Origin: Alphaproteobacteria bacterium
GTDB taxonomy: Bacteria; Pseudomonadota; Alphaproteobacteria; Micavibrionales; Micavibrionaceae
Length of the DNA: 47,879 bases
NCBI GenBank assembly: GCA_030750865.1
Contig: JASMHE010000014.1
Span: 1-47,879 of the forward strand
Direction of reading: 5' to 3'
Within the stretch, counting starts at the first letter, position 1, and each line of letters opens with the position of its first letter. Below the pieces are notes generated by a model. The model made no database searches and was not told the origin of the DNA. It worked only from the letters and a program-made list of their open reading frames with translations. Shown piece by piece: positions 9,053-15,037 of the stretch. Position numbers and translations under genes: made by a program.

Positions 9053-9072
9053 TTAACCTTTTTTAACCTTTA
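9053..9072. repeat. Two 10-bp TTAACC direct repeats upstream of the muramidase gene
   Basis: TTAACCTTTT and TTAACCTTTA lie end to end, exactly one helical turn apart, about 40 nt before the ATG at 9112. They resemble a CtrA box (TTAA-N7-TTAAC), but the spacer between the TTAA blocks is 6, not 7. A CATAAT (-10-like) lies at 9078-9083. The region 8901-9052 also has two copies of ACACGCCCCGC near 8928 and 8946; I see no gene in it. Confidence 0.35.
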
Positions 9073-9111
9073 TCGTTCATAATGAGGGGGAAATTAGGAA
9101 TTTATAAGAAA

Positions 9112-10110
9112 ATGAGCTACGGAACAGACCATAATATCGGCGAGAACATCGGTTCAGACATCAGTTTGGACATCGGTGAAGAATCGCTCTCGGAACGCAG
9201 AGTTCCGGGACGTTCCGGCATGACTCGCAAAGACCTGAAAGGGATGGAGCAAGGCATCGCCGATATGTTCTTGTTTTTTGCACAAGCCCTTGCCGTTTCA
9301 GGGCAGGAAAATATAGAGCTCACCGAGCTACTCATGGATATTTTAGGCTTTGACGATCCGTCGCAGATGGATGGCTGGGTACAGGATATGCAGCAAAATG
9401 GCTGGGAGTGGAGCGACGATCACGATTTCAGCAATTTTGATTTTGATGGCGCATCGGCCATGAACGGCAGCCTGCTTGATCTGATCTCTGAACATGAATC
9501 AGGCGGCAGCTATACCATTATTTACGGCGGCAGACATGTCGATCTGACAGAAATGACCGTCGATGAAGTTCTGCGCTTTCAGGAAGCGACAGTTGCAAGC
9601 GGATCACCGTCATCAGCGGTCGGACGATACCAAATTATTCACAAAACACTTGATGGCTTAAAGGACGAAATGGGCCTGCGCGGTGACGAACCGTTTGATG
9701 AAGCCATGCAAGACCGCATGGCCACCGTCTTGTTAAACCGCCGCGGATATGACGATTATCTGAGCGGTGAAATCGGTGATGCGGAATTCATGAGAAACCT
9801 GTCTCAGGAATGGGCATCCCTGCCCAAAGATATGGGCGGACGCAGCTATTACGCAGGGGACGGCCTCAACAAAGCGCTGACATCTCCCGAAGCGGTGCTG
9901 GCGGCCATGCGTGGCGAACGCGATGCAGCACGGTCAAGCCTATCCGGTCAGGATGGCGAAAGCATGACCGCCTCTGTTGATTTACAACAAGAATACAGCG
10001 CCGCCACAGCGGCAACCGAGCCGCTTGATGTACCCGGACGGAACGGTCAGGATATTACACAGCCCGATCCGGATCAGCGCCCTGAATATGCAGGTCTTGC
10101 CCTGTCGTAA
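9112..10110 (+). CDS. Lysozyme-like protein resembling GH104 phage endolysins
   Basis: A 332-residue protein with a lysozyme-fold core at about residues 118-250. The core has the catalytic-Glu segment LISEHESGGSY (Glu127/Glu129), then AVGRYQIIHKTLDGL (170-184) and SQEWASLP (231-238). These correspond in order to SEG, GAGRYQLL and IWASLPG in the lambda R endolysin (GH104 lytic transglycosylase), so it probably cleaves peptidoglycan. Around the core are an Asn/Ile/Gly/Ser-rich N-terminus, a helical acidic domain (40-115) and a disordered acidic tail. There is no signal peptide, holin or phage neighbour, so the export route is unknown. Start choice: AGGA precedes the ATG at 9112, while the in-frame ATG at 9082 lacks a Shine-Dalgarno sequence and overlaps a possible -10 box. 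Confidence 0.7.
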   Translation: MSYGTDHNIGENIGSDISLDIGEESLSERRVPGRSGMTRKDLKGMEQGIADMFLFFAQALAVSGQENIELTELLMDILGFDDPSQMDGWVQDMQQNGWEWSDDHDFSNFDFDGASAMNGSLLDLISEHESGGSYTIIYGGRHVDLTEMTVDEVLRFQEATVASGSPSSAVGRYQIIHKTLDGLKDEMGLRGDEPFDEAMQDRMATVLLNRRGYDDYLSGEIGDAEFMRNLSQEWASLPKDMGGRSYYAGDGLNKALTSPEAVLAAMRGERDAARSSLSGQDGESMTASVDLQQEYSAATAATEPLDVPGRNGQDITQPDPDQRPEYAGLALS

Positions 10111-12139: not shown

Positions 12140-15037
12140 ATGAGCACGAATTTAGACAACGCGGAAGAGCGCGCAAAACTCTATAAAGAAACCGTATTTC
12201 TTCCGACAACAGATTTCCCGATGCGTGGCGGCTTGCCGCAAAAAGAACCCGACATCCTGAAAAAATGGCAGGATATGGATCTGTACGGCAAGATGCGCGA
12301 TAAAAATGCAGACAAACCAAAATGGATTTTGCATGACGGCCCGCCCTATGCAAACGGCAATATCCATATGGGCCACGCGTTGAACAAAATCCTGAAAGAT
12401 GTCGTCATTAAAAACTGGAAAATGATGGGCTACAGCACCCCTTACGTGCCAGGGTGGGATTGTCACGGTCTGCCGATCGAATGGAAGATCGAAGAACAAT
12501 ACCGCAAGGCCGGCAAAGACAAGGACGAGGTCGATATTCTGGCCTTCCGCGATGAATGCCGCAAATTCGCAAAAGACTGGGTTGATACGCAAAGCGCACA
12601 ATTTCAACGCCTCGGCGTAACCGGCGACTGGGATAACCCGTATCTGACCATGACAAACCGCGCCGAAGGCAAAATCGTGCGTGAGATCCATAAATTCGCG
12701 CTGAACGGCCTGTTATATAAAGGGGCAAAACCGGTCATGTGGTCTGTGGTTGAAAAAACAGCCCTCGCCGAAGCCGAAGTGGAATATCAGGATCATAAAT
12801 CCGTCACGGTCTGGGTGCGCTTTCCGGTCGCAAAGACAGACAATGCGGCCCTTGAAGGTGCGGATATTGTGATTTGGACAACAACGCCGTGGACACTGCC
12901 GTCCAACCGTGCCGTGGCCTTCGGCAAGGATCTGGAATATGGCGTGTATGAAGTCACCGCCACCAGTGAAGGTGCCAAAGTCGAACAAGGCGCAAAAATT
13001 GCGCTTGCAACATCACTCGCTGACGGCGTGAAAGAACAGGCAAAAATTGAAGAGTGGACCTGCATTGCGACCTTTAAAGGATCAGAAGTCGCCGGAACAG
13101 TCTGCCATCACCCGCTACATGATCAGGGATATGATTTCGATGTCCCTGCCCTTGAAGGTGATTTCGTCACGGCAGATGCCGGTACGGGATTTGTGCATGT
13201 GGCCCCCGGTCACGGTGAAGACGACTTTTATCTTGGGGTCGCCAACGGTATCGAGGTCACAGACAATGTCACAGATGATGGTAAATTCCGTCCGCATGTG
13301 CCGTTATTTGCAGGCATGGAAGTGTACACGCAAGACGGCGCGCTCGGCGGCGGAAATTTTGCCGTTCTCAAAGCGCTTGCCGAAGCAGGAAAGCTGTTAT
13401 CGAAAGGGTCTGTGCGACACGAATACCCGCATAGCTGGCGTTCCAAAGCCCCTGTGATCTTCCGTACAACACCGCAATGGTTTATCGCGATGGACGAAAC
13501 GGCCAATGACAGCAATGCAACATTGCGTGAAACGGCCCTAAAAGCCATAAAAGACACAGGCTGGGTTCCGGCCAAAGGGGAAACCCGCATTGCATCCATG
13601 ATCGCAAACCGTCCTGACTGGTGTATTTCACGCCAGCGCGCATGGGGCGTACCGATTGCATTATTCGTTCATAAAGACACAGGCGAAATGCTGGTCGATA
13701 ACGATGTGTTTGCCCGCGTCGGCGAAGCCTTCGAAGAAGAAGGTGCGGATTGCTGGTGGCATGAAGGCGCGGCACAGCGCTTTCTGGGCGATCAATACGA
13801 TGCGGCTGATTATAATCAGGTTTTTGACATCGTTGATGTCTGGTTTGAATCCGGTTCAACCCATGCGTTCGTGATCGGTGATGATGTGACATGGCCAGAC
13901 CACAAAGGCATCGAACAAATTGATCTATATCTTGAAGGATCGGACCAGCATCGCGGCTGGTTCCACTCATCCTTGCTTGAAAGTTGCGGCACAAAAGGCC
14001 GCGCGCCCTATGAAAACGTGCTGACACACGGATTTGTACTGGATGAAAAAGGTTACAAAATGTCCAAATCAATGGGCAATGTAGTCGATCCGTTGAAGAT
14101 GATGGAACAATATGGCGCTGATATTCTGCGCCTGTGGGTCATGACATCGGATTATGCCGAAGATATCCGCATCGGGAAGAACACGTTGAAAAATACGGGC
14201 GACCTGTATCGCCGTATTCGCAACACATTGCGATTCTTGCTGGGCGCGCTTGACGGTTTCACCAAAGCCGAATCCGTTGAATTTTCAGATGATGCCTCAT
14301 CTTTGCCGAAGCTGGAACAATTTATGCTTCACCGCCTGCATGAAATGGATGGAAAAGTACGTAGCCACATCGAAAACTATGACTTTGCCAAGCTGGCGAA
14401 ACTCTTACATGATTTTTGTAACGAAGATTTGTCCGCCTTCTATTTCGACATCCGCAAAGATTGTTTGTATTGCGATGCACCCGACAGCGAAAAACGCCGC
14501 GCGTGCCGCACCGTCATGGCCGTGATCTTTAACGGTCTGACCGCATGGCTTGCACCGATCCTGTCTTTCACGGCAGAAGAAGCATGGGGCCACCGCCCAC
14601 AGGATGTGTTCGAAGATGTCGATTCCGTGCACCTGCGCGATTTTCCGACTATACCGGACGCATGGCAGAATGACGCACTGGCCGAGCAATGGGACGTTAT
14701 TCGTGGTATTCGTAAAAAAGTTCTGGAGGCGATCGAGCCCTTGCGCGCCAGCAAAGAGCTTGGCTCTTCGCTGGAAGCAAAGCCCGTTATCACACTGCCC
14801 GCAGCACACGCGGCATTGCTGAATGATACGGAACTGGCTGAAATCTGCATCACCTCACAAGCCGAAATCAAAACAGGCGATGACGATGCGGTCACCATCG
14901 AAAAAGCAACCGGCGCGAAATGCGAACGCTGCTGGCAGGTCTTGCCGGATGTCAATACCGACAATACCTATCCGGGTGTCTGTGCGCGATGCGCCGAAGC
15001 TGTTTCATCCCACAAGGGAGATTTGAAGGCCGCCTGA
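12140..15037 (+). CDS. ileS: Isoleucyl-tRNA synthetase
   Basis: A 965-residue class Ia synthetase, the length of the bacterial type. The HIGH motif reads HMGH (76-79, after PPYANGNI), KMSKS is at about 640-644 (GYKMSKSMGN), and the CP1 editing domain lies between (TTTPWTLPSNRA near 255 and GTGFVHVAPGHGEDD near 350). The C-terminal zinc site has Cys928/Cys931 (CERCW) and Cys948/Cys951 (CARC). It charges tRNA-Ile in the cytoplasm and hydrolyses mischarged valine. The intact C-terminal zinc domain marks the mupirocin-sensitive bacterial class rather than the eukaryote-like class. lspA follows after 34 nt. Confidence 0.98.
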   Translation: MSTNLDNAEERAKLYKETVFLPTTDFPMRGGLPQKEPDILKKWQDMDLYGKMRDKNADKPKWILHDGPPYANGNIHMGHALNKILKDVVIKNWKMMGYSTPYVPGWDCHGLPIEWKIEEQYRKAGKDKDEVDILAFRDECRKFAKDWVDTQSAQFQRLGVTGDWDNPYLTMTNRAEGKIVREIHKFALNGLLYKGAKPVMWSVVEKTALAEAEVEYQDHKSVTVWVRFPVAKTDNAALEGADIVIWTTTPWTLPSNRAVAFGKDLEYGVYEVTATSEGAKVEQGAKIALATSLADGVKEQAKIEEWTCIATFKGSEVAGTVCHHPLHDQGYDFDVPALEGDFVTADAGTGFVHVAPGHGEDDFYLGVANGIEVTDNVTDDGKFRPHVPLFAGMEVYTQDGALGGGNFAVLKALAEAGKLLSKGSVRHEYPHSWRSKAPVIFRTTPQWFIAMDETANDSNATLRETALKAIKDTGWVPAKGETRIASMIANRPDWCISRQRAWGVPIALFVHKDTGEMLVDNDVFARVGEAFEEEGADCWWHEGAAQRFLGDQYDAADYNQVFDIVDVWFESGSTHAFVIGDDVTWPDHKGIEQIDLYLEGSDQHRGWFHSSLLESCGTKGRAPYENVLTHGFVLDEKGYKMSKSMGNVVDPLKMMEQYGADILRLWVMTSDYAEDIRIGKNTLKNTGDLYRRIRNTLRFLLGALDGFTKAESVEFSDDASSLPKLEQFMLHRLHEMDGKVRSHIENYDFAKLAKLLHDFCNEDLSAFYFDIRKDCLYCDAPDSEKRRACRTVMAVIFNGLTAWLAPILSFTAEEAWGHRPQDVFEDVDSVHLRDFPTIPDAWQNDALAEQWDVIRGIRKKVLEAIEPLRASKELGSSLEAKPVITLPAAHAALLNDTELAEICITSQAEIKTGDDDAVTIEKATGAKCERCWQVLPDVNTDNTYPGVCARCAEAVSSHKGDLKAA

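Follow-up and report, generated by a model that had tools for sequence, protein, structure and literature searches.

The endolysin R of phage lambda (GH104; PDB entries 1am7 and 3d3d), the best-known representative of the enzymes considered here, is encoded beside the holin S and Rz and stays in the cytoplasm until the holin acts. GH104 enzymes leave a 1,6-anhydro end on peptidoglycan. Related lysozymes occur as domains of virion proteins, e.g. the baseplate protein of cyanophage A-1(L) (8kea), and among the phage lysis genes as the SAR endolysins of Rhizobium and Stappia phages. In one report (PMC7511926), GH104 enzymes are described as using one acidic residue, the Glu of the ES motif being invariable. 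According to the same paper, this Glu is also invariable in a predator's wall enzyme of the lysozyme superfamily, DslA of Bdellovibrio bacteriovorus, which, unlike the protein described below, bears a lipobox and acts on deacetylated cell wall, and no DslABC homologues were found in Micavibrio aeruginosavorus (PMC7511926). Strain ARL-13 of the latter species is an obligate epibiotic predator (PMC3189940). How epibiotic predators open the envelope of their prey is poorly understood, and the abstract of a study on B. exovorus calls the mechanisms unknown. The lysozyme analysed in the present study is a concrete candidate for such an enzyme.

The gene is located in a window of 47,879 nucleotides (the whole stretch of DNA that was analysed) from an alphaproteobacterial genome of 2.19 Mb (G000), which belongs to the GTDB family Micavibrionaceae. 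The family includes the epibiotic predator M. aeruginosavorus ARL-13, presumably represented by genome G077, and several of the named relatives carrying a homologue are MAGs called Micavibrio. The ORF is intact and, counted from its first ATG (position 9082), has 342 codons, i.e. encodes 342 amino acids. The preliminary description had placed its start at position 9053, which precedes the ORF. Since an alignment of 21 family members showed that the Met at residue 11 is invariant, translation probably starts at position 9112. The predicted features of the gene and its product are collected in Table 1.

Table 1. Predicted features of the lysozyme-like gene and its product (positions in the window; residues counted from the first ATG)
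Feature	Position	Strand	Basis or remark
Lambda-lysozyme-like protein gene	9082..10110	+	Counted from the first ATG; translation probably begins at 9112
N-terminal stretch, hydrophilic and predicted to be disordered, lacking a signal peptide	9112..9222	+	pLDDT <50 at residues 12-42; hydropathy
N-terminal helical unit, helices 54-73, 78-88 and 93-113	9223..9420	+	First helix moderately hydrophobic
Lambda-lysozyme (GH104-type) core, residues 129-285	9466..9936	+	Profile and structure matches
Glu139 codon; alignment counterpart of the lambda catalytic residue Glu19	9496..9498	+	Glu in 34/34 distinct family cores
C-terminal tail, largely predicted disordered	9937..10107	+	Predicted model
Tail stretch resembling the island-protein motif, Tyr replacing Phe	9979..10035	+	Weak match; outside top 70 of the matrix ranking

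Profile searches connected the protein with phage lysozymes. The window protein matched the PHROG endolysin family phrog_90 (E 8.8e-23), which was also matched by 14 of 15 family members, and a profile match to the tail-lysozyme family phrog_430 was also obtained (E 3.4e-9). A 15-row family profile retrieved lambda lysozyme from the PDB sequences at E 5e-7, and a 21-row profile was aligned by hhalign with the lambda R product (sequence taken from J02459) at E 3.6e-8 and a probability of 95%. A single-sequence phmmer comparison gave no better than E 0.03, and a Pfam scan of the window protein assigned no family to the core.

The core was modelled confidently by AlphaFold (pLDDT mostly >90). With VIA-align, the structure nearest to this predicted model was the cyanophage A-1(L) baseplate protein 8kea (Z 13.0), followed by the two lambda lysozyme structures (Z 11.7, with rmsd 3.8 and 135 residues aligned, and Z 11.5 for the second) and then by MltE and gp144 (Z about 6); Foldseek alone ranked lambda lysozyme first (E 3.2e-3). 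Both the profile search and the predicted fold agree with the GH104-type landmarks from which the preliminary description had proposed a lambda-endolysin-like muramidase: EHESGG (with Glu139), GRYQ (181-184) and WASLP (244-248) occur in this order and are aligned with E19, G65-Q68 and W124-P128 of the lambda enzyme. Further residues kept in both proteins (lambda/window) include Y33/Y144, G65/G181, Y67/Y183, Q68/Q184, Q91/Q210, D92/D211, W124/W244 and P128/P248. Glu139, which forms with Ser140 the counterpart of the ES motif, aligns with lambda Glu19; a Glu is present at this place in all 34 distinct family cores, in all 10 Saccharibacteria cores and in all 6 phage cores. The product of the window gene is almost certainly a GH104 muramidase like the lambda endolysin. 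With Glu139 as its catalytic acid, it would cleave peptidoglycan between MurNAc and GlcNAc and probably generate a 1,6-anhydro end.

The protein shares with the lambda endolysin the fold, the catalytic Glu and the G-x-YQ, QD and WAxxP landmarks, but it has 342 residues instead of 158, with a helical unit in front of the core and a disordered tail behind it, and is encoded chromosomally with no adjoining holin or Rz. The tail-associated lysozymes have the same core fold, whereas no virion genes were present among the scanned neighbours of the window gene. The SAR endolysins are 42-44% identical in the core, and the annotation of the one from phage Paso includes a membrane helix at the N-terminus, a feature missing from the window protein. 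Relatives from Saccharibacteria (L075-L087) are about 41-51% identical over residues 131-285, but they are about 210-250 aa long, possess a clear N-terminal membrane helix and no long tail, and are placed separately in the tree. The N- and C-terminal regions, described earlier as unrelated, are indeed unlike phage proteins; the N-terminal helical unit is, however, common to close family members in the alignment, and so is not unique to the window protein.

The ten neighbours of the gene were identified by a Pfam scan as cydB, cydA, two short-chain dehydrogenases, a HAD-like protein (scoring just under the cut-off), BKACE, a hexapeptide protein, an esterase, ribF and lspA; in addition, ileS was recognised by eye at 12140-15037. 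No holin, spanin or other phage genes were found among these ten neighbours, all of which are housekeeping genes, which agrees with the phage-free surroundings noted in the preliminary description. The scan of the same ten genes also revealed no exporter genes.

With the 15-row profile, matches were obtained in 42 of the 142 genomes of the order, all 42 belonging to the window's own family. The remaining 62 of the 104 family genomes gave no match, which indicates that not every family member requires the gene. The profile also matched 6 of 385 genomes in a sample of the class, and four of these lie outside this family. A tree built from 82 cores placed the window protein with that of the one genus mate compared and with L062 (support 99/92). 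The distribution of the family copies on this tree needs 6 label changes, of which the starred branches force only 1; this is compatible both with a single origin of these copies and with several. Comparison of the genes of G022 and G077 (dN 0.025, dS 0.522, dN/dS about 0.05) points to purifying selection in this pair of relatives.

These data bear on the origin of the gene. Were it a functionless endolysin left over from a decayed prophage, the resemblance of its core to endolysins and tail lysozymes of 207 phage records (all below 60% identity; the best, the muramidase of Stappia phage SI01, 44%) and the fact that the family copies are not shown as one clade would be readily understood. This explanation is extremely unlikely and largely refuted by context, since the frame is intact, phage neighbours are missing, the terminal regions differ from those of phage proteins, many relatives occupy one conserved locus (see below), and the low dN/dS of the G022/G077 pair indicates selection. 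The muramidase very probably derives from phages and has become a resident chromosomal gene; its domestication, already suggested in the preliminary description, is supported by its presence across the family, the lack of phage neighbours and the purifying selection. It is a resident bacterial gene of phage type with a new architecture. Searches of the open-licence PMC literature yielded no title or abstract that describes this enzyme family in Micavibrio.

Analysis of the surroundings of 37 distinct homologous genes (40 rows minus three repeats of the same loci, and including two near-copy pairs, L018/L124 and L020/L074) revealed mdh and/or sucC at a distance of no more than 10 kb in 25 cases. 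This number comprises 24 genes from the main scan and that of G022, whose mdh emerged separately. The other 12 include the window's gene, which sits outside this island. In island loci the lysozyme gene commonly comes after a gene whose large, coiled-coil-like product shows no recognisable signal; the coiled-coil protein of ARL-13 had no match in G000 or G001 at E<=1. In some loci, other wall hydrolases were observed in the island, i.e. (i) an M23 peptidase with PG-binding domains (L072), (ii) GH104-M23 fusions (L028:9440-11029 and L066:5584-7164), in which no signal peptide was seen by eye, and (iii) a protein which, on inspection by eye and with no Pfam match, we take to be SLT-like. The SLT-like island protein of M. 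aeruginosavorus is homologous to the SLT-like family of the other loci (E 2.8e-5). It lacks a hydrophobic start, while 8 of 9 sequences of that family begin with a hydrophobic stretch, as judged by eye.

Contig C2 of the window genome has kept the gap between a sucC-like gene and mdh, and it is occupied there by genes for proteins of 488 and 366 aa, with no lysozyme gene. These two uncharacterised proteins (L122:10460-11926 and L122:12061-13161) are candidate partners for study together with the lysozyme.

The absence of a signal peptide, reported previously, was upheld: within the first 80 residues of the window protein, the most hydrophobic 17-residue stretch begins only at residue 58 and has a mean hydropathy of 1.48, and no SAR-type N-terminal signal-anchor helix was found by hydropathy analysis. 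Given the lack of a Sec signal, exit from the cytoplasm would require a route reading another part of the protein. The disordered tail would be the part most likely read, and a type I-like ABC exporter would be the most available candidate route. In PMC3189940, type I and type II secretion systems are reported for ARL-13, with no evidence of T3SS or T4SS. ABC transporters of G000 matched nearly the whole PrtD model, although all of them scored below the curated cut-off and the model also found matches in 14 of 14 control genomes. The possibility of a T6SS effector was rejected, since VipB (PF05943) was missing from all 104 family genomes, while the E. coli control was positive.

Against this background, we assign a rough probability of 0.5 to the reading that the protein is a domesticated muramidase exported independently of a Sec signal to act on the wall of prey. 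The enzyme would do so during attachment, alongside products of the mdh-sucC island. A role in attack or a special export route is plausible in view of the predator-containing family, the hydrolase island in relatives, the lack of a Sec signal and a recurring tail motif. Against this reading stand the facts that the window organism is not a known predator, that its gene lies outside the island, that 62 of the 104 family genomes gave no match, that all PrtD-type matches score below the cut-off and that the tail motif is weak in the window protein.

The helical unit permits another interpretation, in which helix 54-73 serves as an internal weak signal-anchor, placing the core in the periplasm, where it would remodel the cell's own wall for growth, division or appendage insertion. 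Stretches of mean hydropathy 1.2-2.0 are found at a similar place in many members (e.g. 1.92 in L062, 1.99 in L130 and 1.98 in L030), N-terminal membrane helices occur in Saccharibacteria and in several alphaproteobacterial homologues, and phage relatives are annotated as SAR endolysins. In the window protein, however, the stretch (1.48) follows about 45 hydrophilic residues and the predicted model packs helix 54-73 within a three-helix unit; moreover, several members (L023, L021, L029) have no such stretch in their first 80 residues. The helix could be a weak signal-anchor, but we regard remodelling of the own wall as rather unlikely. For the role in cell division considered in the preliminary description, the analysis yielded no particular argument on either side.

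It is still less probable that the protein stays in the cytoplasm until lysis, as a timed autolysin or a kin-lysis enzyme released by an unlinked holin. The lambda R enzyme, with its neighbouring holin S and Rz, offers a parallel, and the missing signal, shared with the large coiled-coil proteins adjacent to the relatives' genes, would suit such a role; but the ten neighbours include no lysis gene, and the gene persists across a bacterial family and is under purifying selection in the one pair compared. We favour action outside the producing cell, on prey. The presence of both the enzyme and the island of candidate partners in the cultured predator M. aeruginosavorus ARL-13 opens the idea of attack to a gene-removal test; the orthologue of this strain is located at G077:C1:640219-641238.

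The tails of many island proteins contain stretches resembling F-x-x-A-A-x-G-T-x-P, about 30-50 residues before the end. A motif matrix was built from ten training stretches, picked by eye in non-lysozyme island proteins. In a leave-one-out ranking of 652 proteins, nine of the ten training proteins appeared in the top 27 and the tenth, with another stretch, at position 57. Lysozyme tails scored 4.76, compared with 3.45 (s.d. 0.43) for their own shuffles, and none of 200 shuffles scored as high, which is a modest gain over 37 rows including near-copies. The window's own tail was outside the top 70 of the 652 proteins. A loose regular expression applied near the C-terminal end gave 54 matches among these proteins, housekeeping ones included.

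We also used a tail profile of 21 rows, six of them from lysozymes, including the window's own. At E<=1 it matched in 31 of 104 family genomes and in 22 of 106 genomes of the class, G000 included; none of the latter matches was below 0.13 outside G000. When profile rows and their orthologues were left out, nine new family matches below E 0.13 were obtained: an island protein of G073, one orthologous gene in G022, G077 and G079, and single matches in G000 (contig C13), G078, G010, G116 and G024. Only two of the nine, those of G000 C13 (47 residues before the stop) and G010 (39 residues), are near the C-terminal end; in one G073 island protein the motif lies 145 residues before the stop. Beyond its own rows, the profile matched in G000 the 574-aa protein of C13 (E 0.05) and a 432-aa protein of C9 (E 1.1). 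The SLT-like protein of M. aeruginosavorus matched the loose expression, with no match to the tail profile at E<=1.

Since most of the new matches are not C-terminal and are near chance, the tag is kept as a hypothesis. It seems unlikely, though conceivable, that an undescribed Sec-independent tail tag of this F-x-x-A-A-x-G-T-x-P-like form, about 30-50 residues from the C-terminus, exports unrelated Micavibrio-type proteins by one route to breach the prey wall, its cargo being phage-type muramidases, GH104-M23 fusions, SLT-like enzymes and large coiled-coil proteins. The motif is nevertheless a testable candidate for a signal of Sec-independent export.

Two of the profile matches have features of their own. 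The 574-aa protein of G000 (L150:8692-10416) contains a stretch resembling, by eye, a metalloprotease site, with no Pfam family over the cut-off. The motif conserved in G022, G077 and G079 lies near the N-terminus of a 284-aa protein (L152:9457-10311 in G077), which appeared by eye to be distantly RelA/SpoT-like and had no Pfam match.

Unusual arrangements of the core were noted among the homologues. The 430-aa protein L025:3155-4447 gave two GH104-like match rows in one frame and is perhaps a tandem with a degenerate first copy. In L136:9617-12649 (1010 aa), a GH104-type core is located at the C-terminal end (residues 813-1000).

Beyond the alphaproteobacteria, the nearest named relatives are Saccharibacteria, apart from the MAG L079, labelled Flavobacteriaceae. 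A special link with Saccharibacteria was rejected, their cores joining phage and alphaproteobacterial cores (91/75) and not those of the window's family. Eleven loci (L075-L078, L080-L083 and L085-L087), most of them labelled Saccharibacteria, encode a lambda-lysozyme-like protein of 207-252 aa with an N-terminal membrane helix. Its neighbours include proteins that we take, by eye, to be MurT-like and GatD-like in 4 of the 11 loci and RNase Y-like in 5 of the 11.
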